Assembly: GCA_020081605.1 (NCBI GenBank)
Contig: JAHREC010000011.1
Coordinates: 558,001 to 622,000, forward strand
Source of the DNA: Albifimbria verrucaria
Taxonomy: Eukaryota; Ascomycota; Sordariomycetes; Hypocreales; Stachybotryaceae
Length of the DNA: 64,000 nucleotides
Direction: 5' to 3'
The first letter of the stretch is position 1; each line of letters opens with the position of its first letter. The notes below the pieces were generated by a model. The model had not been told where the DNA came from and did not search any database. It was given only the letters and a program-made list of their open reading frames with translations. Made by a program: the position numbers and the translations under genes. Shown here piece by piece: positions 22,688 to 47,980 of the stretch.

Positions 22688-24507
22688 ATGCTCAAGGTGC
22701 AACTCAGAAGTGAAGTGTGGACCGACATACAGACTCTGCAGGGCAATGGTTTTCCTGGTCGCTTCAGTACGGGCTGCAAGCGCTGTCGCAGTCGTAAAGT
22801 CAAGGCAAGCACCACCATTACCTGATACAGGCGTCGTGAGCCTTGTAGACCATGTATTGACTCTTTTATTTGATTGACTGCAGTGCGACGAAGCAAAGCC
22901 CTCTTGTCATCGCTGTTATGTGTATGGAAAGCCTTGTCCTGGTTATACGGACCAGTTTCATTTTCGTTACAGTCATGGCAAGTCAAATATCGATGACAAG
23001 GTAAGGGAAGCAGTTCCTTTGCCAGCTTCAAAGCCGGGCTTCCCGCCACAATGTCGAAAGACAAAAGACAGCGTCAGTAGGCGTAGCTCTACTGCACAGC
23101 CCGACAGCAATGTCTCTCTTATTGCATCAAGTATCAGTCCCACACACGAGGATATCTCACTCTGCTATTTTGTCAGCCGTTTCGTATCACCTAATGGCAT
23201 GGATGGCTTCCCTGGACACTTGAGCTTTCTCACGCGGCTCTTCGACCATCACCGACATGGGTTGATGGAGCTGGCCACCCTGACTGTCGCCCAGATGGCG
23301 GCGTATAACCAGTTCCGAGACGAGGGGCTTAGATTGGAATCGTATCGAAACTACGGTAGAACCATCAAATCTTTGCAAAAGGCTATACATTGCGATGAAG
23401 AGGTCAAAGACGACAGGGTCATTGCTACAGTGTTGCTTCTTTGCATTCTAAAGGTCAGTACCCATTCAAGATCCTTTGTTTGTCAAAATCCAGGTTGTTA
23501 CGAAACAAATCACCTCTAACAAGACGTAGGATATCAGCGGCGAATGCTGTGGTGACCCTCATGAGCATGCATCGGGAATTTACTACCTCTTAGCGAAGAG
23601 GGGTGGAGCAGCTTGCATCTAGCACTGGATTTGAACTTTTGATATTCGCACTGATGAGGCTTGTAAGGTCCTACCTCGTTCATTCTGGCGCAAACGTCTA
23701 GTGGCTAACGCTCCCGTCAGCACATTTACTCATTCGTACACAACGATGATACGTACAACGACCCCGGCGGAGTCGCTGCCCTCCTTGGCGCGTTCGACCC
23801 CTTGATTCGTGCGATGGCTATAATGTCGAAAATTCTCCGGCTGAGACACTCTATCCACTCTACTATTTCTCTCATGCCTTGTCAGTCTGACTCTGAACGA
23901 GACAACCCCTACTGGACAAGGAGGAACAGCATGAAAGCATTTTCCAATCAAGCCTGGACGCTTTGCAGGACTTGGAGACCTGGGAGTCTGAAATTCCACA
24001 ATACTGGGACAGCACATTTCAAGGCCGTGCCCTTCCAGCCGCGTTGGGTCAGGTTACGTCTGCTGGGGTCACTACGATCCCGAGACAGCCTGCACCATGA
24101 TATTGATACGCTCTGCACGCTTAGTGCTTCTTTCGAGCATGTACGAATACTTTGTTGGGACGCAAATTGCCCCGGGCGATGGCACTTTCGCAACCACCTT
24201 GCGACAAGACATGCATCTAACTATTGACGATATGATAGCATGCGTTCCATATGCGATGGGAGATGTAAACGTTTGCGGACAAGCTTCATCGCTGCCGTAC
24301 GATGCAGCTGCAGCATTAGTTATCCGCCATTCCATCAAAGTTGTGACTTATTGCTGTTACTGGGATGCCGCGCAAATGCAGACAACGCAGCAGATATTGA
24401 GCCGCATTGATCGCGCTATTGGCTTGCAACCCGTGGCGGCTTGCAAGGACGAGCTGGCACCTCTCAAGGCCGGCATGAAAATGCAACCTTTTGCTGTATT
24501 GCTTTAG
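22688..24507 (+). CDS. Zn2Cys6 transcription factor with a GC-AG intron
   Basis: Binuclear zinc-cluster regulator. The DNA-binding motif is split by an intron: CKRCRSRKVK before it, and CDEAKPSCHRCYVYGKPC after it, giving the six Cys. The intron 22805-22883 begins with gcaagc, a GC donor, and ends in ctgcag. A second intron (about 23455-23529) and a third (about 23668-23720) follow in the fungal-specific activation region, which contains MELATLTVAQMAAYNQFR and HIYSFVHNDDTYNDPGG. The C-terminus (KVVTYCCYWDAAQMQTTQQ) ends at 24507. Frame changes near 23612 and 23850 indicate single-base losses. Its place amid oxidative genes suggests that it is the local pathway regulator; that is inference. 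The start at 22688 is uncertain. Confidence 0.82.
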
Positions 24508-27720: not shown

Positions 27721-29391
27721 CTAAGTGACTCGTCCATTCCGTAACTGTGTGAGTAGCTTTTGCATCTCAACATCATTGTTTGCTTCATGCTCCGCATCTC
27801 TGGCATCATTTGGCTGCGTGTGACCTGACGCCTTTGCCGGTATCATGTCTCTGTTTCCGACACATATCGTCAAGATCATGCACAGGCCGGAGCACACCGT
27901 ATGATAGATAAATATGTAATGTATGCCCTTCATATAAACATCTAGAATGATATTCTTTTCATTCTCTGATAGGTTTGTCTGGTCAAGGAGATAAGTGGAA
28001 GACGTTAGCGCTGTTATGCTGTCTTTTGAGATGATGCCGGTATCGTATAAATCTGCGCTCAAAATGTTCGACAGAATCGCACCAGAGACTACGAGCCCTG
28101 CAGCACCGCCAATTGTTCGAATGTAGTTTCTCAAACCTGTAGTCGCTCCACGATCCTCGCTCTTATTGTTGGCGTACATTCCCATCAAGATTGGTTGCAG
28201 AGAAAACCAATACCTAAGCCTTCAATCACCAAAACAGGAATTAAAAGGCCCGGGCCTGTACCGCGATGAAAAAGTAGCGTAAGTCCATTGCCAGTAGCCC
28301 TGAGAATAAACCCCACGAGGATGCAGTGCATGTAACTTCCCACGCGAGAGATGTACTGCCCTGATAAATGAGACGCAAGTGAAGTCGGGATTATAACGGC
28401 AAGGATTAGAGCTCCTGAAGCTAGTGGCGAGTATTTTAAAATGGTTTGAAAATATAGTGGCAAGTAAGAGAAGTTGCCGAAATACGATGAGCCTGTAAGG
28501 AATGCCTGAGCATAAAGCGCCCAGCAATGCGGTGCCCAGAACAACCGTAGCTGAGTAGCAGGCACCTGTGGGCATTTCCACTCGAATAGTAGAAATATGA
28601 CACCTAGTACCATACCAATTGGCACAGGGGCGACGAATCGTGGCGACGACCACGGGTAATCAACTCCTGCTCCTGCAAAAGGAACGAGGAACAGAAGTGT
28701 GGCTGCTAAATTGATCATCATGCCCACATAATCAATGTGTTTGGCCTTTTCGGAGGCACGTCCAGGTCGTCGCGTTGAAGGCACCACAAATAGGACGATC
28801 ACAGCTGTTGGGATTGTAATGATGGATATTATCCAAAACAGCCACCGCCACGATGTCGTCTGCACAATAACACCGCCTAGCACAGGGCCGAGAGCATTTG
28901 ATAGAGTGACAACTGTGCCAATGATACCTTCAAGGCTAGTCAACATATGCAAGGCTACAGTCTGCAGTCTGGAAACCCTTACCCTGGTACTGAGTCGTGA
29001 TATCCAATACAACAACCATAGATAGACTACTTACTCCGCCTGCCCCAACACCAGCAATTCCACGGAACGCGAAAAGTTGCTGCCGTGTCTGAGCCAAGCC
29101 GCAAGCTAAATCTCCTATGCCAAGAAGAAAAAGACAGATTGCTAGGAGATTCTTGCGACCCACGGTGTCTGATACCGGACCGTGAAGGAGCTGAAGGACT
29201 GTCGTGGCGACCAAGAAGGACGCACCGATCCAGGAAGTCGAGGTCCCTGTACTTAGCCCAGCGGCAATCGCAGGCAATGCTGTCGACACTCCCAACTGGT
29301 CAATGAATGTTACAAAGTGGCATATGGACAGCGCGACGATGGAGGTGCGCAGCCGCGTAATGGAGAGCTCGTCATCTCCAGACTGCTCCAT
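27721..29391 (-). CDS. MFS multidrug/metabolite exporter, DHA2 (14-TM) family
   Basis: Plasma-membrane proton antiporter of the DHA2 drug:H+ family. The first block (29391-28985) has TM1 with FVTFIDQLGVSTALPAI, the motif-A-like loop GPVSDTVGRKNLL and motif C-like GVGAGGVSSLSMVVV. An intron follows at about 28981-28928. The next block contains NALGPVLGGVIVQTTSWRW (motif C) and many membrane segments, and the last block (28188-27721) ends with a charged tail. Frame breaks: ccc at 28982-28984 next to the donor, and aaaa 28202-28205. Next to a P450, a thiamine-diphosphate enzyme and a zinc-cluster regulator, it probably exports the product of that group or an inhibitor. Family is secure; cargo is inference. 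Confidence 0.88.
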
Positions 29392-29763
29392 CTCGACTTC
29401 GACATGGCGAGCCTAAGCGTGGGGCCCCGCGATTTGCCTTGTCCTCCCTGCCACAGAGGTTGGTTCAACTTGGGCCAAACGTCCTCGTTTTGGCCATGGG
29501 GATGATGGACCAAAGAGCGGCAAATCTATCGAGGTCCGGCGGTGTTTCTCCTCAACCAAGTGTCATACTGTGGGGCCGTGCATCAACATGTGGAGTCCAG
29601 TTTCCCAGTTCCAAGGATGAAAATGCCGAGAGGTGGCTAACATGTTAGTGCGATTCGTCTCGGCTTTAAGTGCCGAGTTGTAAGGCTGCATTCACGCAAT
29701 TACCACTCATCATAGGGCTAACAAGCAGTTGTGCAAGTTCTATGGATCAAGGTCTGACAATTT

Positions 29764-31817
29764 CTACATTAGCACTTCGATAAACATTCCCTTTTTCTGC
29801 TTGCCAACCCTCAAGGTTGCATCACGAAGGGCATCCCTAAGCTCTGCTACGGTCTTGACTCGTACACCCTTCATCCATTTCTCGTCAGACCCATCAGCAC
29901 TGTTCCATCCAACTTCTGACCCCGCCGCTGCTTCGGCCAAGGCTGCGTAATTTGGTGATGGGCGGAAAGAAATATTAATCTCTTCGTCAGTCGCGGACCT
30001 GTTCAATCCAGAAGGATACACAAGCTGTGTTGAGTTTCGAGGAGCCTTCCAGCCTGGAAGATGTTATCAAGTCTGCAGCGAGGGTATGGGCATGCTCGAG
30101 ACGAAGGGAAAACAGCTTACCTCCATTGTTCAACACAATTGTGAGAAGTGGGATGGAATATTTCCTAGCAACCCACAGCGCTGTAGAAGGAGCGGCGCAC
30201 ATGAAACTTCCATCGCCAACAACCTGGCAAACAAGGCTCTCGTTGCCGGCCTCAGTTTCATGGTCTTTGAGTGCCATTTGAACGCCTAGTGCCGCGCCGT
30301 TGCTCCACCCGATGCCAGTGCCGCCACAGTTGACCCAGCTACCTGGGCGACTAGGCTGTATTTGATCGTGAATAGGTGACGAAGCCGTGACTGCTTCTAC
30401 CACGAATGTGGTCGAGTCTGGAAGAGTGCTTTTCAAAAGACTACCAATGTTGTCTGCATTCAATCCATCCTCCCCGCGTAGCCGAGGCCGAGATGCAATC
30501 TCCGCCAAACGGGCCTTGTGAGCTTGAGTTTGAGCTTGTCCTCGCTCACGATACTTGGTGTCTTTGAGCGATTCGACCAGCGACTTGTCGTCCCGAATGT
30601 AATTAACCAGCTGTGACAGCGCAACGAAACTATCAACTTTCCACCGTCCATTGGCAGGGAAAAAGATACAGGGATCTGTTGATTCAAGGGATCGCAGTCC
30701 ACATGATAAATCCTTGCCGTCTTCTGGGGCGGGTTTCGCGATGGTATCCAAGGCACGTCACAATCCAATAAAAGAATGACGTCGGCGTCTTTGCTGCAAT
30801 CGTCGGAGCTGAGACGGAAGCCTTCGGAAGCAGGGTGAGAAGCTGGGAAACACACATCGCTACCACCCGTGTCATGAACACGGATGCCGGGGATGAGGTC
30901 TGCCAGAGCCACTAGGAGCTCCGGAGTTCGTCTGTCACGGCCGGAATACCCTGTGATGACAAGAGGGCGTCGGGCTTCTACAAGGGCCCTGGACACATTC
31001 TGCACGGCATCTGGGGAAGCGCAGCGGGTCCTACCGGCACCCACTGGTCCTGATCCAGAGAGTAAGGGTGGAGCTCCTGAGCCAGGACCTCTCGCGCACT
31101 AGCGACATAGACTGGACCTTTGGGTGTGCTGCTTGCAAATTGGATGGCACGCCCGATTGTTTGCTTGATGTTCAGTCCAGTGCGAACCTCACCAGTATAT
31201 CTGCAGTACTGCCGAACGATGGCTTTCTGGTCTTGAGCTTCTTGCAGCCAATGCATGTATTCTGTCCTCGATCCTGGCAGCTCGCCAGACTCTGTGTAAG
31301 GGCACAAGCCGGCAAAAATGAAAACTGGAGCACGACCGATGCTTGCATTATGGACGCCTTGACCGAGGGCTTGCGTGCCTACGTCGACGTGAACAAGCAC
31401 GGCCTGCGGTTTGCCAGTCACCCGAGCATACCCATCCGCCATTGAGATTGCCGTCACTTCGGAAGGACAGGTGATCATTCGAGGCCAGGAGTTGGGCCTC
31501 TCTCTCTGCCTTTGACGATGGCTTCAATGATCGACGGGTGGTCAGACCCAACATTGACAAAGCAGGTTGTGATGCCAGCCTAGCGAGGAGGGTGAGCAGG
31601 TGCCTAACTACGTGGAGGGTAGATTTACTTCCCAGAGACCCTCAAAGAGAGCAAAAGCCGTTGTATAGCCACTAGCCACTGAGCCATTCTGTGGTGTTAC
31701 TGCTTCCGAGGATGGAGGATCTGGACGACGCAATCGTACACTGCTAGAGAAGGAGCAACAGATGGTACGGATGCCTTGGTACGTGGGCGAAAGGCGGAGA
31801 ACCGAGGACCAGTACAC
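29764..31817 (-). CDS. thiamine-diphosphate-dependent enzyme (acetolactate synthase/decarboxylase-like)
   Basis: ThDP enzyme of the pyruvate-decarboxylase/AHAS superfamily. The pyrimidine domain has VNVGSDHPSIIEAIVKG and CPSEVTAISMADGYARVTG, whose Glu is the residue that activates the cofactor. The middle domain (about 31000-30600) starts at DAVQNVSRALVEARRPLVIT. The PP domain has GDGSFMCAAPSTALW followed by VLNNGG, the metal-ThDP motif. Introns are 31580-31628 and 30054-30120. Frame breaks fall near 31500, at gggg 31013-31016 and at the five-A run 30660-30664. The reaction would be decarboxylation of, or C-C bond formation from, a 2-oxo acid. It lies in tandem with the exporter. A general role in valine synthesis is less likely, because the sequence has diverged from housekeeping AHAS and it sits among tailoring genes. 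The start is uncertain. Confidence 0.85.
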
Positions 31818-36821: not shown

Positions 36822-38439
36822 ATGGCTGTCGAGGTCCAGCCAGCAAAGAGCTTTGAAGGTAATAAGCTATGAGATCTCATGCACATTGGCCGCCACCATC
36901 TAACTACTCGGGATAGGGGTTCTTACCGTATCCTCGACACCAGAGTCCGTTCCCATCAGGACGTCGGTGGAAGTGGCAGCAAGCCTGTCCCCGGTACTGG
37001 GCCATTTCAGCTCCCTGGACTCCAGCACAACTCGCTAACCGTGGAAACAGGCACGTAAAGTGTTCATTTGCGCTACTGTCATTTTCCTCAACTTCAATGT
37101 CACACTGGGATCATCCCTGCCAAGTGGCGCCGGAGCTACGCTGAATGCTCACTTTGGGGTTACATCAGAGCTGCAAAAGCCATTGCCTGTAGCGATCTTC
37201 CTTGTTGGCTACAGTAAGTAACTTTCAGATGCACTCGATCATTGGGTGGCATCTCCCGAATCGCACGGTCGATCGAACAGGCCTGCTGACCCGCGTCTAC
37301 CTCTAGTTTTCGGCCCCATCATCTTTGCACCACTGTCCGAGTCCTTGGGGCGGCGCATAGTCTTTCTTGTGTCTTTTGCCATCTATACTGCGTTTACGCT
37401 TGGATGTGCGTTTGCGCCAAGCTGGCCAGTCTTCTTGTTCTTCCGCTTCATGCTTGGATGCGGTGCGGCAGCTCCTCAGACAGTCTCGGGCGGGCTCTTC
37501 TGCGACCTGTACCCGGACCTTGGACCTCGCGGCATGGCGGTGACAATGTTGGGCTTGACAAGCAATGTTGGTCCCCTAGTGGGTCCGATCATCTCCGGCT
37601 TCACGTCGACGAGGGCGTGGCAGTGGCAGTTCTGGTGTGCCCTAATCCTTGCTGGTGCCAACTGGCCCATGCTTCTCATGATGCCGGAGACGTTTGCGCC
37701 CGTTTTGAATGCTCGTGCTTTGAGAAAAGCTGCTGCGGAGGAATCTAGCGCGGATCACACTCCCAAAATGCCCTTCAGCCTTCGGGAGCAAATGAGGATC
37801 CTGACCCGCCCCATTCGCATTCTCTCCGAACCACTCGTCTTTTTCACCGACCTCTTTATTCTGTATCAATACGTCATATTCTTCCTGTACTTTGGAGCTT
37901 ACCCTGTCATTTTCCGCGGCACATATGCCATGTCTGATGGCGTCTCCGCCTTGATGTTTGTGCCAACAGGCATCGGGGCAGTCTTGGCCATTGGCATATT
38001 CATGGCGTGGGACAAGTTCCACAAGAAGAGTGTCGAGCAAAAGAAGCCTTGGGCTCTGCGTGAGGAATACCGCCGGCTTCCTCTGGCGTGCCTCGGCGGT
38101 CCGCTGTTTGCTCTCTCAGAGTTCTGGCTGGGATGGGCTGCACGGCCCAACATCCACTGGGTAGTTCCTGCGTTGTCAGGTATCCCTCTTGGCATTGGCA
38201 TTGACTTGACGTTCCTGGCGTTGAACAACTACCTCACTGATGCATACGACATTTACAGCGCATCAGCCTTGGCATCGAGCGTCTTTACACGTAACATTCT
38301 CGCTGCAGTCTTGATTCCTCTTACCACACATCCGCTGTATGCAAGGCTAGGCACACAATGGGCCTGTACCTTGCTAGGATGTCTATGCCTTATCTTGACG
38401 CCGATCCCGTTCGCGTTTATTCGCTGGGGCCGGCAATGA
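36822..38439 (+). CDS. MFS transporter, DHA1 (12-TM, polyamine/drug type)
   Basis: Drug:H+ antiporter of the DHA1 family, similar in layout to fungal polyamine and multidrug exporters. The ATG at 36822 starts a soluble N-terminus; one intron begins at about 36859 (gtaataag) and another at about 37212 (gtaagt...tag 37308). The main block (37309-38439) is uninterrupted, with FAPLSESLGRRIVFLVSF (motif A), RFMLGCGAAAPQTVSGG, LTSNVGPLVGPIISGF (motif C) and FFLYFGAYPVIFRGTYAMS. The charged loop after the sixth helix is typical. The frame between 36917 and 37050 contains a stop, so the first soluble exon is not resolved. Two permeases in tandem here suggest a transport island, but no shared substrate is evident. 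Confidence 0.85.
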
Positions 38440-39701: not shown

Positions 39702-40288
39702 CTAAGAGTCATAGGACGAGTTCTCTGCGTCAGCGTTGATGCCAAGGTGTCCATCGCCAGAGAAGACCTCGCTCCTCTTTGCGTCGTAGGAAGACTCAGA
39801 GGCATCAGAGTTGATTCCTAGGTGTCCGTCGCCAGAAAACACCTCACGTTCCTTCACATCGTAAGAGGATTTAGAAGAGTCAGGGTTGATACCCAGATTT
39901 CCGTCACCCGAGAAGACCTCTCTTTTCTTCGCATCATAGGAAGACTCTGAATCGTCAGAGTTGATACCTAGATGCCCATCACCAGAGAATATTTCGCTTC
40001 TCTTTACATCGTAAGAGGACTCAGACGCATCGGAGTTGATGCCCAAATGTCCATCGCCAGAAAAGACCTCGTTTCTCTTCACGTCGTAAGAAGATGCAGA
40101 GGCATCAGAGTTGATCCCCAGATTGCCATCACCTGAGAAAACCTCTAAACTACCCATCAGCACGTTCTCGTAGAGTAAATGTGTACTTGGAGTGGAGCTG
40201 TCAGCGGGAGTGGCTTACCAGGCTGAGAAACAGGGGCTGCCGCTGTCAGGGTCGCTGCAAGAACGATGAGAGGCGTCGAGTAGCGCAT
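39702..40288 (-). CDS. secreted repeat precursor with Kex2-type sites (candidate dikaritin RiPP precursor)
   Basis: Small two-exon gene. Exon 1 (40288-40219) encodes a signal peptide, MRYSTPLIVLAATLTAAAPV. The intron is 40150-40218 (gtaagc...gggtag). Exon 2 (40149-39702) is built of six 25-residue units. Each has FSGDG at its start, LGIN in the middle and SSYD near the end, followed by a basic pair: KR, KR, KK, KE, KR, with the last unit ending at the stop. Kex2-repeat secreted precursors of this kind are cut in the Golgi into multiple short peptides; those in dikaritin pathways are then cyclised by UstYa oxidases through an aromatic side chain. Each unit offers one Phe and one Tyr. Exon 1 and exon 2 join one base out of frame, best explained by one T lost from the ttt run at the acceptor (40147-40149). 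A divergent UstYa gene starts 1.2 kb away. Alternatives are a pheromone-like or structural repeat protein. Confidence 0.85.
39705..40148 (-). repeat. six tandem 75-base units inside the precursor gene
   Basis: Units, read on the minus strand, are 40148-40074, 40073-39999, 39998-39924, 39923-39849, 39848-39774 and 39773-39705 (the last is shortened to 23 codons). The peptide is strongly conserved, while codons differ between units (for example the Ser codon in FSGDG is TCA, TCT or TCG). So the units are old and kept by selection on the peptide rather than recent duplications. Confidence 0.9.
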
Positions 40289-40428
40289 TTTCAAGATGGT
40301 GGCTTAAGTGGCTGCTGTAAAATGATTGCAAGTCTTTACGGAGCAAACGCCGAAAGGCTTCACGAATAGTGTTTTATCTGGAGATTCTGAGATGCGTTGG
40401 TGGTTCGTTCGAGAGGAAGGGTACGTGG

Positions 40429-40436
40429 TATTTAAA
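40429..40436 (-). promoter_or_regulatory. TATA-like element of the repeat-precursor gene
   Basis: TTTAAATA on the minus strand lies about 141 bases before the precursor ATG at 40288. Its position fits a core promoter with a leader of about 100 bases. No regulator site was recognised. Confidence 0.35.
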
Positions 40437-41516
40437 ACAGATGAGCAGCATTCCATGCAGTCTACCATGCAGTGACCAGTTTCTCGTGCTGGATACGCAA
40501 TCGACAGTAGCATTCTTGGGAAACTTCCCTGAGAAAGTTAGCTTGTTATTGGATAAGCAGATGGTGAACCCTCCTTTCATGTGGACAGACTGCACCCTGA
40601 CGCCACCAAAGCAACCTGCGTTGCCAACGACGGTGGCATCGAACTTCACGGCCAACTTTTCCGTAATGGATATCACCTTCCATGACGCAACCTCCCCAGC
40701 AGGCACGAACTCATGCTAAGGGTTGCCAATGAAACTGCGGCGCTAGGGAGGTTTCCACCACAGGCGCCGGTGAATATTGATACCTTCAGCTTCACGGCAG
40801 TTAAGGGAAAGCCCGAAAATCATTCCCAATCACGTTATCTTGGAGTTTCAAGCTTGGGATCTGTGTTGCTTCCCGCACGCACTGCCTATCCAGGAATGAG
40901 TGGCCGCGCTGAAAATGTTTGCGACACTAGCGGTAGAGGGTCTGGACCTGATGTGTAGCATACATGGCTTCTCCTTACCGTTACTGTTGTGATATCGGAA
41001 CTTAGAAGCCGCTCAGTTGTTTCACTCTGGAATAGATGCATAGTAGCGCGCAGCTATCCCGTTTGGATTAGTTTCAACGGCCATGTCTGATGTAGGGTGA
41101 CAATTACGACTTCAACTCGTCAGTTTGGGCTTCGGTGAGGTCTAGATTTAGGCGAAAGAGGTGCAGACCAGAGTTGCAAGCGCATGCAAGGTATCAAAAT
41201 CCCACCCAATGCTGGGTGTTCATTGGAGGGATCAACAACAGCTATGCCTTTCCCAACGTAAGTCATATGCAGATCAATTAGTTGAAGTGGTTAGCTGACA
41301 GACTTTAATAGGCTAGAGCGGATATCATTAAGGGAGACGAGGCAAACAGGAGCTCGTCATGTGAGTGGAATCGCCCAAGACGCTTGGCATAGACTCCGAA
41401 ACTGACCATGGTCATCCGATGACCTATACATGTCCACACTGCTTTAATCGTGGCACTATTCACCCTGCATTGTCTTGTTCTTGTCCATCATCGTTGACTC
41501 GAGCTATACAGTGGGG
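40437..41516. other. divergent intergenic region with unassigned coding-like blocks
   Basis: It separates the precursor gene from the UstYa gene. Two stretches read like protein: about 40540-40960 plus, with glycosylation-type NFTANFS and later FPPQAPVNIDTFSFTAVKGK in a second frame; and about 41101-41260 plus, followed by a good intron (gtaagt...aatag, about 41261-41312). No family was recognised, and the two do not join in one frame. A small secreted protein gene broken by base errors is possible; otherwise this is shared promoter sequence. Confidence 0.3.
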
Positions 41517-42439
41517 ATGAATTCGGATCGCAGCTCCCGCGAGTTTTGTGCTGTTGATAATGGTGAGAAATTTGAGCTGCTAAATGAAGAGTCTCGCAAA
41601 GTAGACACTCGCAAGCCGGCTTGGAGAAGGCTTGCACCATGGTTACTGCATGGTTTCTTTTTGACGTTGTATCTGGCGATTTTACCATTCGTGGCATCCC
41701 GATGGACTTGGCAGCAACAGAAATGTGTTGATAAAGTCAATTCTTACTGTTAGTTCATGCGCCCTACTAAACGACAATGCTGACACTGTATCCAAGCTCC
41801 AATAAATGAAGGCATTCAAGAGGAATACGTGGATTACTGGTTCAAGGGCTCTTTGTGGTACGACTCTCCCTACAAGGGCCCGCCAACACCAAAGGTGAAC
41901 GAGGCTTGGGCAGATTTGTTGAAATGTAGGAATGCCCCGTCGATGTAACTTGTAGAGAACTACATAACTAACAATCTTGTTTCAGATGGTGCCATCAGCG
42001 TTACTGCGGACGATATTCAACGTATCGGGCACAACCTCACAGCTGTACAATTTCCATCTGAAGTAGGCGGCGGTTACCTTGCTGTTGCCATGGGGGCTCA
42101 TCACCTCCATTGCCTGCACTTTATCTGGCAGGATCACCACATGAGCTATTTCCTGATACCAAGAAGAACAAAGAGGGCGTTCCCGAAATGTACGAGCGCC
42201 ATTACGAGCACTGCGTGGATTATCTTCGACAGGCCATCATGTGCAATTTTGACCCTGGTATCATCCCGTATTATTGGGTGAGAAAACACAATCAGCCAAC
42301 ACCAGATGGTAACACATTCCATAAGTGTGTTAACTGGGATCATTTGCAAGATTGGTTGAAGAACCGTGCTGTTGAGATGCCCGAGGGCTTTGAATGGCGC
42401 CAACCACCAGACGCTGTATCTCTACCAAAGAACCCTTAA
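41517..42439 (+). CDS. UstYa-family (DUF3328) oxidase
   Basis: Three exons: 41517-41748, 41797-41925 and 41986-42439, with introns 41749-41796 and 41926-41985 (the latter has a tactaac branch site). A single N-terminal membrane segment (WLLHGFFLTLYLAILPFVAS) follows a charged cytoplasmic tail. The lumenal domain carries both family motifs, HHLHC (in AHHLHCLHFIW) and HYEHC (in YERHYEHCVDYLRQ), proposed metal-binding and catalytic sites of UstYa-type oxidases that crosslink RiPP precursors. The two motifs are in different frames because of a break at ttt 42149-42151, one base lost from the run. An in-frame ATG at 41475 is also possible. The gene sits next to the repeat precursor, which is the defining pairing of dikaritin pathways. 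Confidence 0.9.
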
Positions 42440-42704
42440 TTTACCTCGCCAGGTGGACGGATGAGAAGACTTCAACTGTGAGGGTTGCTATTGAAGAGTT
42501 AATAGGAGGCCCTATAGGTCCAAGATGTACATTTAGAATTAAACAACGAAAATTTCAAGTCGGCGACATTCTCACATAAATCGTTGCGACTCTGCAGATG
42601 CGCGACAGGAAAATAATCCTCGGTATAGGAGCTATTGGATAATCAGATAAGGCCTCTGTTAACTTCTCAACTCTGCAGAGTATCAAATTGTCTACAACGA
42701 CCAC

Positions 42705-44464
42705 TCATGCTACAGGCAACTTGAAAGCACCCTCAGCAAAGCGACGAAATACCCCTTGAGGGTCATATCGCTTCTGCGCAGCCCAAAGCTTTCTGTAGTT
42801 CTTCCTTTCATAGCTCGCAATAACATGTTGCTCATCGTTTGCATCGTTCATGAAAATGAAGTCAAGGAAATAACCAAGAGACTTGCTGAAGGCTTCTATT
42901 TCTTCCATGAGTGCATTAGAAGCCTTACGCACGGCTGCATCATCGTTTGGGTTGAACCAATAGAACTCGACGCGAAGCCAAGACTGGTTTACATCTTCCA
43001 GTTCCATAGCCAGATCACCAGACATACGTCCAACTTTAATGAGGTTAGTTGAGACAGGCTGCCAGGTGAAGGTTACAGTTCCACCGGTCAGGTTCTTCAC
43101 TGTTTGTACGTGAGGCGATGTACGCATCAAGTGCTTGATTATCCTATACATTCTTTCTGTCGGTCGCAATGTCACAGCCATAAATTGAGCACTGAAGCTG
43201 AAATTAGCAATAGTTCATAACCTGAACATACAAACGCACCGTGTTATAGTTGGAGTCTGAAACGCATTGATTATTTTGGTAAGTGGCTGTATTTGTGTTG
43301 TGTCCATCTCTGATTTAATGTCATAAAACGGAGCGAACACAATCGGCCACTGTTCAGGCTTGAGATATACCAAACTCAGAGTTATGCCTGTATCTGTTTC
43401 GTTGGATGCTGCTATGTTTAACACAAGACTTGCGTACGGATCATTGTTCTGTGTTGCTTGGAACTTAAAGAGGGCTTCCATCACAGCATCCAGCTTGTTC
43501 CACGCGAAGACAATAGTTCCGCCCCAGACTCTATGCACATTGTATGTCCTCATGGTAAAAGAGGTAACAATACCTAAAAAGCAATTCATTAGTTACGTAG
43601 CATGGATTACAGTGAAGTCTGCACTGTACCAAAATTGTTGCCACCTCCTTTCAGGGCAGAGAACAAATCAATATTCCTGGACTGGTTGGCAGTTACCAAG
43701 GATCCATTGGCAAGAACAACCTTTTTCCTTTTAGTTCAAATCATTCAGCGGTCACATATTGTTTGGGGGTGTGTGCGTGCATATAACTTACGTCAAAAGA
43801 TACAATATTGTCGCAGGCTAGACCATGCATCTCAGACAAGTATGAAAGCCCTCCTTATGCAAAAGTTAGCACACGCATAAGCTGAGAAAACAACGAAATA
43901 CCTCCTAGCAGGAACCCTCCAACTCCTACGTCAGGTGCTCGGCTTCCCACAGCTGTGGCATCGTAAGCGTCAAGATGTTCATAGACATGGCGCCATCTTA
44001 GGCCGGTTCCCACAACAGCCAAATGCTTGGCAGCCTGGCACTCAATATGGTTCAAACGGGATAGATCTATCAAGACGCCATGGCCTGTACTTGCAGCTCC
44101 TCTGATCGGCATGTTACCACCTGAACGGATGGCGAACTTGTTTCTGGCTTTAGTAATAATGGGCAACGCTTGCTGCAAATCTTGAGTTGTATGGGGACAA
44201 AGATGCAATCAGGTTCTCCCCACGCTATTTGAGACCTGGCCCCAGATATTCTTAGCGGATAAAGTAGATATGGAAGACGTGGCAGTGGTACCAGTGTGCT
44301 TTTCTGATATGCGCATAAAACTCACTCTCCGGCGTGAATGTCGAGTTATTCGAAATGTTGACCAGAGTCTCGCACGCTATGCTTTTAGAGGTAGAAATTA
44401 CATTGTCCCAGAGAAACTGGGACACCAGGAAGAGTGAACTTCCGAGATTTCCTAGATATTCCAT
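42705..44464 (-). CDS. BBE-type FAD-linked oxidase
   Basis: Berberine-bridge-enzyme-like flavoprotein. The N-terminus (MEYLGNLGSSLFLVSQFLWD) looks like a secretion signal or anchor. The FAD-binding half has FAIRSGGNMPIRGAA, VGTGLRWRHVYEHLD, VGVGGFLLGGGLSYLSEMHG and GGGNNFGIVTSF. The second half has the substrate domain and ends NYRKLWAAQKRYDPQGVF, the usual BBE C-terminal motif. Introns are near 43850-43900, 43730-43795, 43575-43630 and 43200-43243. In most relatives the covalent flavin His follows RSGG; here it is Asn (codon at 44113-44115). A frame break lies near 44190-44280. It is convergent with the UstYa gene, 265 bases apart. Such oxidases act in many fungal pathways, so a tailoring role on the peptide is plausible but unproven. 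Confidence 0.87.
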
Positions 44465-45233: not shown

Positions 45234-47980
45234 CTAGGCCGCAGATGCATTTGTTGTGTATACCAGGTTGAAGGGTTCGAATGCCCTAGCCTCCCAGCCG
45301 TCCGCCTTGGTAGGATCGCCAAAGATCTTGAGAACACGCACCAAGAAATAATATCGGCCCTCAGGGGCCACTGAGCCATCATCCAATATGCCGTTGAAAG
45401 TAAGACTGTTAGAAAAGCGTTGCACGAGTGTCAGGGGATAGCCTCTTCCGCTACCGATTACTCTTACACCAAATTCATCAACATGTCTATTGCTAGTGTT
45501 GTGATTCGGACCATCTGCTACGAGGTCTAGTCGAACAGTCTTGGTGCCAAGATTTGTCCGAAACTGAATGAAAGGCCATCCAATCCCACTATTTCCTGGG
45601 GTATTGAAGTCTTTGGGGTAAGGTAGGTAAAAGGTTCCGTTGGGAATAAGAGGCAAGACCTGCTGTGTCAGGTTTGTCATACTGAATAAGGATGAATTCA
45701 GCATGGGTGCTGAGTTCATGCTACCTAGAACACCAAGATATGGGATCGAAAGCGACTCGACTCTTGCCCTTTTATCTTTCTCAGTGCCAGTCCCGTTTAT
45801 GGTGATATAGCCACTATACACAGGCAACCGTGAGCTGTCTAAGCCTCGAGGGGTCTAGGTGTCACATGAACCTCTACAGAGCTCCCGGCAGGCACCACAA
45901 CTCGGGCATGATCAAAGTCTAGCTCGGCATGTTCTGAGGCCACGGGGTTAGGGTACCTAGCTGGCTGATGGTTTTTATCGAATGTGTAGAGTGACACGGC
46001 AGGGACATGGTCGATACCGTATGTCATGGCCGTGGGGCCTAGGTTCCGGATGCGAAATCGGGTCGAAGCCAGGATGTTGTCTGTATCATTGAACGAGATG
46101 CTTGAAACACTCAATAGCGTTTTGACTTGAGCGGCATCGTACGCCTGAGCAACTCCAGCGCCTTGTTGAGCAACTGAAGATAGGCCTGCACTTTTATCCG
46201 GGGCCCATAATGTCGGCTTAGCAGTGGAGGTAAGGACCCTAAAGAGCTCAGAGGGATCTCGAGTTCCACGAGCCTGGGCAACCAGAGCATATATGGCCGC
46301 TGCTAACGCCGTAGCCATAGAGGTTCCTGATTGAGTTGCATATCCACCTAGATTGAGGGGTACGTTGAGAGGACGCCGCCGCCGACAGTTGCAAGATTGG
46401 GTTTGACATCTAGCTCCCAGGTCGGGCCCCATGTAGTTGTGCTGCTCATTAACCCACCGTTCCCAGTGTTTGGTGATTCGATGATTATGCTCGGCGACGC
46501 CTCACGCTCGGTAATATCTAGCAAGATTTCTTTGCAACTATTAATGAGGCCAACCCAGCTAAGGCCTTGTTCCCGAGACACTCCTGCAGCACCCAAAATC
46601 TCACTAACATCATTGAGATAAGGGCGTGGTACGCTATCCAAGGCACTGTACATTATGACATACTTGGCCCCTTATCAGCAACGTTGCGTCCTTGCTCAGA
46701 GATCAGGCACGTCGCTTCTCGTATGAGAACGATGTAGTTTGAGAGATTAGGAGTGTCATCTGGTAGGGGATTGCACGCATCATCATCAATGGCTGTGTCG
46801 TTGCTGGTGGCGTAGAGTGGAAGGGAGACGTTTGCAAAGGCAGGGTAGCCTTCCGTCCAGCCAAAGTCTTCGGTTGGTGAATCCTCCACGCTGAAAGTCG
46901 CGCGAATAGCTATAATTGTGGCAACCAAGTTCTCCACTGATGCTATCGCTGTGACTCCTTGCCAACAGCCCCAGAAGCAGCAAAGAACATTCCCTGGTTG
47001 CCCTCATTGCCTGCAGCAACAGTAACTGGTACACCTTTCTCAACAATACGCTGCAGAGCTACCACTATGGGGTTCTCACTCCACCCAGATGAGCTTCCAA
47101 TAGAAGCCGTGATAATGTCGTTTCCGTCCTCGTAAGCTTGGTTGAACGCTGCAACGAGCATATCGCTGGCTACACCGCCGCTACATCCGAAAACCTTGTA
47201 TATCCCTACGTCAGCATCAGGAGCTGCGCCAGTGAATCCAAGCGGGTTTTCTTGAGCCACAATGGTTCCAATGACATGAGTGCCGTGGAAGCTCGAGGTG
47301 CAGGGTTCCATTGGGTCGTTGTCGGGGATAGGAGTATTACTGCCATTGTAGGCATCACCAACAAAGTCGATACCACGGGAGATCAAACAACCTGGACCGA
47401 AACAGCCCCCAAGGCGGGGTGATTGTAATCGACACCGCTATCGAGTACACCAATCTTGATCCCTTTTCCAGTGTAGCCTGCGGTTCTAAGCTTATCGACC
47501 TGTGTCATGACATGAGGTGAAAATGTGGTGTTTGATTCCGAGTTGAACCGTCTGCTCAGCGCAGAAGCGCTAGTCATCTGTTCGTTGCCCACCCAGATAA
47601 TCTCATCCTCAGGGCGCTGGTGCACTTGCACAGGCCACAGGTTTTTACTCTCGCCAGTCTCGCAATGCTGTTTACTGTGGCGTCTGGTTCGGAGACATTG
47701 TCTACGCGGAATGAAGCGCCTTTGAAGAGCGAGTAAGACAGGTCAACACGAGGAACAGCGTCTATAGCCACCGACTTGAGATCCTGGAAGAACTCATCCT
47801 GATTCTGTTTTACGAGTTTAGTATGCTTGGATTTCTTCGAGGAGCGCTGTTTACCTGCTGGGGATCCTCGAACTCGACGATATATGCTCCTGGGATCACA
47901 GTATTGTCTGTGGAAGGACTGGCAGCAGATAACACTGGGAGGCTACCTAACAAAGAAACTAGAATGCCTAGCTTCTTCAT
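45234..47980 (-). CDS. secreted subtilisin-like serine protease (S8A, PA-domain type)
   Basis: Large secreted protease of the vpr/cuticle-degrading type. The ATG at 47980 starts a signal peptide (MKKLGILVSLLGSLPVLSAA), then an inhibitor-type propeptide with intron at about 47801-47851. Catalytic Asp is in IGVLDSGVDYNHPALG, His in SSFHGTHVIGTI and Ser in SGTSMATALAAA. A protease-associated domain sits between the His and Ser blocks, and an Fn3-like C-terminal domain (SVEVHVTP, then IGWPFIQFRTNLG) ends at 45234. Frame breaks occur near 47650, at ccccc 47406-47410, near 46955, at cccc 46668-46671, near 46362 and near 45835, all fitting single-base losses. It lies beside the repeat precursor and could serve peptide maturation, but a general nutrient or host-degrading role is at least as likely. 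Confidence 0.88.

Follow-up and report, generated by a model that had tools for sequence, protein, structure and literature searches.

The stretch analysed here, a 64,000-nucleotide (nt) window of the Albifimbria verrucaria genome (contig JAHREC010000011.1), contains, near 598–602 kb on the contig, a gene for a Kex2-processed repeat precursor (KEP) that is divergently adjacent to a gene for a UstYa (DUF3328) oxidase. We consider it probable that the locus encodes a small peptide pathway of dikaritin-like type (KEP plus UstYa), in which the repeat units would be the UstYa substrates, and, judging from the sequence, oxidative cross-linking of the peptide is likely. Support for such a pathway comes from the divergent adjacency of the two genes, the published enrichment of DUF3328 genes beside KEPs, and the presence of other such pairs in the same genome. 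The novelty lies in the core peptide, the KEP and UstYa architecture itself being already published. The features concerned are as follows, with positions counted in the window.

39702–40288, minus strand: KEP of 170 amino acids (aa); exon 1 40219–40288, intron 40145–40218, exon 2 39702–40144
39702–40144, minus strand: six 25-codon units of the precursor, from tandem repeat calls and translations
40289–41516, no strand: 1.2 kb of intergenic DNA separating the divergent KEP and UstYa genes, from an open reading frame (ORF) and Pfam scan
41517–42439, plus strand: UstYa (DUF3328) oxidase gene; exons 41517–41748, 41797–41925, 41986–42439
42099–42113, plus strand: first HxxHC motif, HHLHC, from the sequence
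42200–42214, plus strand: second HxxHC motif, HYEHC, from the sequence
42705–44464, minus strand: flavin adenine dinucleotide (FAD)-linked oxidase (PF01565); modelled introns 44236–44291, 43854–43901, 43721–43791, 43574–43629, 43198–43239

The precursor gene has one intron (74 nt, GT-AG), and the spliced model is open. Its N-terminus, judged by eye on that model, is hydrophobic and signal-like, and the units are followed by the linkers KR, KR, KKR, KER, and KR (after units 1 to 5, respectively), four of the five being dibasic. The published KEP rule calls for at least three tandem repeats of 8 to 100 aa between KR, KK, RK, or RR sites (PMC7329392), and six 25-residue units with these linkers fall within it. 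Tandem Repeats Finder scored the array at 403 with a 75-nt period and at 475 with a 150-nt period; it lists just two further rows in the window, whose periods are 11 nt and 31 nt. Counted on translations, 15 of the 22 leading residues are identical in all six units, including F-S-G-D-G-x-L-G-I-N-x-D-x-x-x-S-S-Y-D, and a unit has one Phe near its start and one Tyr towards its linker end.

Over the 15 pairs of the six units, the proportion of synonymous differences (pS) is 0.745 and that of nonsynonymous differences (pN) is 0.105 (Nei–Gojobori). When pN/pS is computed in all six frames over the array (21-codon units), the coding frame gives the lowest value, 0.12, and the others range from 0.28 to 10.8; the frame at 0.28 is antisense and its third positions coincide with those of the gene, which would be expected to cause some carry-over. 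Silent sites are thus much changed while the protein is kept, which makes the array more than chance and marks it as constrained coding sequence. The array is real, and strong constraint acts on its units at the level of the protein.

A search of 5.8 billion proteins, in which relatives of 0.55–1.75 times the query length that share exact 5-mers are detectable, gave 24 candidates for the precursor, none of them with E ≤ 1. In the window's own genome (48.4 Mb, 41 contigs), a protein search gave a single match, the locus itself, and no further copy of the array. A search of open-access literature text for FSGDG-type strings found no fungal paper, the matches concerning, by title, human proteins, a biomaterial, and wheat. 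As neither the protein database nor the rest of the genome yielded a relative, the core peptide is new as far as these searches reach. An earlier account of this DNA (the sequence-only reading) had described a signal-like start and six 25-residue repeats with mostly Lys-Arg-type linkers, and had stated that the repeat matches no known core; the first statement agrees with the data above, and the second with one protein search and the open-access text searches.

The UstYa gene matches PF11807 (cut-off, 25 bits) in two pieces, with 87.9 bits before a frame change (profile positions 3–148) and 81.7 bits after it (145–219). By inspection, there is a membrane-like hydrophobic segment near the N-terminus. 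The H and C of the first HxxHC motif are invariant in 15 relatives; in the second motif the last H and the C are invariant in the same number, and the first H almost so. The divergent UstYa gene with a membrane segment and both motifs, as the sequence-only reading had it, is therefore confirmed, together with a frame change that it did not report. Three small ORFs scanned in the intergenic region gave no Pfam match above the cut-off, and for want of evidence the small ORFs of this region were not kept as parts of the cluster.

Searching both the repeat and the UstYa protein, which had been proposed earlier, was productive for the latter (19 relatives) and yielded no homologue for the former. 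At near-full coverage the best UstYa relatives are 71% (metagenome proteins) and 68% (Clonostachys solani) identical; others come from Cytospora, Hypoxylon, Stachybotrys, Metarhizium, Pochonia, and further fungi, with shorter fragments of up to 80%. The second piece is 84–87% identical to proteins of Stachybotrys, Clonostachys, and Hypoxylon, and at most about 40% identical to the own-genome paralogues compared. Because identity is high across genera and low to these paralogues, UstYa represents a distinct, well-kept lineage. In Clonostachys solani, Stachybotrys elegans, Hypoxylon sp. FL0890, and Metarhizium this lineage shows 56–68% identity over the first piece and 76–87% over the second, but a precursor of the present repeat type was not found in those fungi by protein search. 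No UstYa relatives were found in a prokaryote genome collection, and no solved structure is related to it by sequence, the sole chain listed being a lymphocyte receptor (E 0.13).

The same genome offers further examples of this architecture. Its 35 exon matches to PF11807 fall into about 20 neighbourhoods, of which 17, the window included, were read in stretches of 6 to 24 kb (outside the count are C15 near 6.56 Mb, C10 near 7.19 Mb, and C33 near 1.70 Mb, with C6 near 5.64 Mb included in part only). Repeat arrays with dibasic linkers occur in at least six of the 17, in every case no more than about 2 kb from a UstYa match; the count, taken from the best 60 rows, is a lower bound, as weaker arrays may be missed. 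It excludes L018, L022, and L027, among others, which have no dibasic linkers, and L034 and L035, which are weak or short. Besides the array of the present locus, those counted are the following (no strand given).

L011, 6259–6963: repeat array with a 27-aa unit
L016, 1597–1977: repeat array with an 18-aa unit
L019, 6961–7666: repeat array with a 16-aa unit, partly frame-broken
L030, 209–787: repeat array with a unit of about 23 aa, irregular, with His-His
L031, 3277–3863: repeat array with a 14-aa unit

The units of these five arrays are unrelated, and unit strings from L011, L016, L019, and L031 had no match in the open-access text search. Their pS is lower than that of the locus in L016 (0.265) and L011 (0.434), and similar in L019 (0.704), L031 (0.707), and L030 (0.797); in L011, pN/pS is 0.05, below that of the locus array. 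Given the similar divergence of three arrays and the lower pN/pS of L011, neither the age nor the constraint of the locus array is special in this genome, and the KEP–UstYa architecture of the locus is not very special either. The sequence-only reading had implied a more unusual locus; that impression does not survive at least five more pairs in the genome and the frequency of such pairs in print, where 22% of 7878 KEPs are given a DUF3328 neighbour, most commonly as the adjacent gene (PMC7329392).

Some of the UstYa neighbourhoods hold other repeats. L034 has, at 1103–1623, a secreted precursor-like ORF beside UstYa, in which a Lys-Arg site is followed by Gly/Tyr/Pro-rich short repeats; it fits the KEP pattern poorly. 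Short repeats without dibasic linkers occur in L018 (554–676, 11 aa) and L027 (7918–8523, 15 aa), and are possibly precursors processed in another way, or chance. Tyrosinase-domain matches lie within about 3 kb of UstYa matches at C33:327217–327925 (L017) and C8:186251–186888 (L032), so that other loci have a tyrosinase-containing arrangement that is absent from the window.

The FAD-linked oxidase gene is convergent with UstYa, 265 bp from the UstYa stop codon. Its joined later exons score 79.8 bits against FAD_binding_4 (PF01565), and the C-terminal berberine bridge enzyme (BBE) domain scores 14.7–16.2 bits, under the cut-off of 20.6. "FAD-linked oxidase" is therefore a safer name than the earlier "BBE-type flavin oxidase", of which the flavin oxidase is retained and the BBE label is not. 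Among 7998 proteins scored there are 883 relatives at E ≤ 1e-20, and the best named one among the 120 listed is 48% identical (Apiospora). A 258-residue piece of record P0020 is 94% identical to the oxidase (BLAST), and near-identical by eye if read-through of the last intron is allowed. RSGGH is found in 106 of the 120 listed relatives, RGGGH, RSGGR, and RSGGN in one each, and none of these in 11; the present gene has RSGGN. The His of RSGGH is presumably the usual FAD-attachment residue, and the Asn in its place suggests that FAD would be bound non-covalently.

It is possible, though we lean towards doubting it, that this oxidase is an integral step, and that the locus would represent a KEP–UstYa–flavin oxidase sub-type set apart from the ustiloxin, phomopsin, and asperipin-2a pathways. 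The short convergent spacing from UstYa argues for it, as do the solved relatives of the oxidase, which include natural-product enzymes (EncM and berberine bridge enzyme), and text searches found no open-access paper on Kex2/DUF3328 precursor systems with an FAD-binding or berberine-type enzyme. However, the family is as large as the 883 relatives indicate, the motif His is replaced, and of the genera with close UstYa relatives, Hypoxylon (39–44%), Cytospora (41%), Metarhizium (39%), and Stachybotrys (35%) are represented among the 120 listed relatives at modest identity only, while Clonostachys is absent. Nor is a flavin enzyme new in itself, since ustiloxin biosynthesis already employs flavoprotein monooxygenases (PMC6514808).

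Frame changes at the locus deserve attention. UstYa has one between its two HxxHC motifs, which consequently lie in two reading frames of the assembly; an intron was ruled out by inspection, a GT-AG pair being absent between the motifs. The oxidase has one near its 5' part with no intron to explain it, and the pieces of the neighbouring subtilase are in discordant frames. One might conclude that the locus has decayed, UstYa and the flavin oxidase being pseudogenes and the precursor a remnant or reused. To judge this, junctions in the HSP70 and CCT families of the same genome serve as a comparison: 11 of 26 are off by 1–2 nt and too short to hold an intron, 14 have the size of an intron, and 1 is unclear. 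Not every short gap was accepted as a frame break, since 6 of 17 flagged junctions were dropped (5 intron-sized, 1 nested match); the breaks occur, for example, on C8, C10, C15, and C36. Most HSP70 and CCT family members are essential, and it is unlikely that all those broken in this manner are pseudogenes. As chaperone genes show similar 1–2 nt breaks, those in UstYa, the oxidase, and the subtilase are best read as assembly errors, which we regard as the likely cause. Both UstYa pieces also retain strong family scores, the piece after the break keeps its 84–87% identity to relatives in three genera, and the precursor array is open and constrained. Decay is, on balance, very improbable. With 1–2 nt breaks in chaperone genes of the assembly, gene calls made from it need care.

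In the proposed dikaritin-like pathway, signal peptidase would act on the precursor first, and Kex2 would then cut at the KR and KKR linkers in the Golgi; units 4 and 5, with KER between them, may stay linked. Trimming of the basic residues by Kex1 would give peptides of about 22–23 residues, each with one Phe and one Tyr. The membrane-anchored UstYa would then cross-link or otherwise oxidise a side chain, most likely that of the unit's only Tyr. Tyr is present in the repeats of 65.6% of DUF3328-linked KEPs versus 38.2% of others (PMC7329392). A major facilitator superfamily (MFS) pump may export the product, and the FAD oxidase may oxidise it further, both suggestions being guesses from position.

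Several points weigh against such a pathway. The UstYa and oxidase frames are not open in the present assembly, and the AlphaFold model of UstYa (15-row alignment) has a mean predicted local distance difference test score of 51.5 and a predicted template modelling score of 0.38, too poor for active-site inspection. The KEP–UstYa pair appears here in one genome, the precursor having no homologue in the protein search while UstYa relatives occur in Clonostachys, Cytospora, Hypoxylon, Stachybotrys, Metarhizium, and Pochonia, among others. UstYa enzymes occur in polyketide and nonribosomal pathways as well (PMC12048977). Own-genome searches placed neither a tyrosinase match nor an S41 peptidase match at the locus: none of 69 tyrosinase (PF00264) matches is in the window, the nearest on the contig being near 323 kb, and the only S41 peptidase (PF03572) match found lies on another contig. 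Finally, the 120 listed relatives of the FAD oxidase give no sign that it travels together with the UstYa lineage.

The lack of a visible shared history of the two genes, with relatives for UstYa and none for the precursor, would also suit a precursor whose peptides stay linear and undergo trimming at most, to serve as a signal, a pheromone-like peptide, or a surface peptide, with UstYa serving elsewhere or as a bystander. Several KEPs do yield linear peptides (PMC9769878), and conservation is not confined to a short core but extends over most of the 22 residues of the unit. We nonetheless hold linear peptides to be unlikely, as the two genes are divergently adjacent at 1.2 kb, DUF3328 genes are enriched next to KEPs (PMC7329392), and the genome has at least five more such pairs.

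Beyond these genes, two neighbours should be recorded.

37222–38436, plus strand: MFS transporter ORF (PF07690, 95.9 bits), first ORF with a Pfam match beyond the precursor, on the side away from UstYa
45234–47437, minus strand: subtilase (Peptidase_S8 plus fn3_5; PF00082 58.5 and 29.2 bits, PF06280 36.1 bits)

From its position, the transporter is a possible exporter of the peptide. The subtilase adjoins the oxidase on its far side, with pieces in different frames, and is probably a bystander; it was dropped as a cluster protease for lack of evidence. Families above the cut-off among the ORFs scanned at 35–52 kb are MFS/Sugar_tr, UstYa, FAD_binding_4, and S8/fn3_5. No isoflavone-reductase-type gene was seen among these ORFs, a scan that did not take in every small or antisense ORF and was accompanied by no genome search for the family. 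Farther off, the window contains genes for a P450 (26505–27182), a Zn2Cys6-type regulator (22878–23519; weak, below the cut-off), an MFS protein (27721–29412), and a thiamine-pyrophosphate enzyme (29987–31523), a group 8–17 kb away that is probably a separate neighbourhood.

A more speculative idea, which we rate as a long shot, is that the whole unit is selected as an oxidatively cross-linked peptide of about 22 residues, made by the conserved UstYa lineage with a flavin oxidase replacing tyrosinase, and that it would be a cyclised hormone or pheromone and not a mycotoxin. If the peptide is modified, the small set of UstYa-made peptides whose products are known would gain a core without a detected relative. 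Most of the unit is under visible purifying selection, and the locus is therefore useful, with L019, L030, and L031, for asking whether KEP–UstYa pathways make conserved signals besides toxins. A host with at least six KEP–UstYa pairs is a good place for matching precursors to products.

Within the KEP class, the locus follows the published repeat and linker rule with a repeat sequence that matches nothing found. The broad definition of a dikaritin is a class-defining DUF3328 enzyme with two HxxHC motifs beside a repeat precursor (PMC12048977). The locus has UstYa beside a repeat precursor and both motifs, albeit in two frames; at the sequence level, it is a dikaritin by this definition, and the dikaritin pattern named in the sequence-only reading is upheld to that extent. 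The assignment does not extend to the narrow phomopsin/ustiloxin definition, because the window has no tyrosinase, the S41 match is on another contig, and the YxI core (Tyr-x-Ile) is absent from all six units.

The locus resembles ustiloxin and phomopsin in its repeat precursor with Kex2 sites and its DUF3328 oxidase with HxxHC motifs, but differs in lacking tyrosinase and S41 peptidase matches and a YxI core, and in having one UstYa gene versus the two or five given for those pathways in PMC7329392. The asperipin-2a cluster of Aspergillus flavus, for which PMC6514808 names four genes (AprA, AprY, AprT, and AprR) with no tyrosinase among them, likewise combines a repeat precursor, a single UstYa-type gene, and a transporter nearby. 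It has an isoflavone-reductase-type gene where the locus has an FAD-linked oxidase, and a six-residue core that the present unit, with one Phe and one Tyr, does not match. Among these systems, the nearest anatomy to the locus is that of asperipin-2a.

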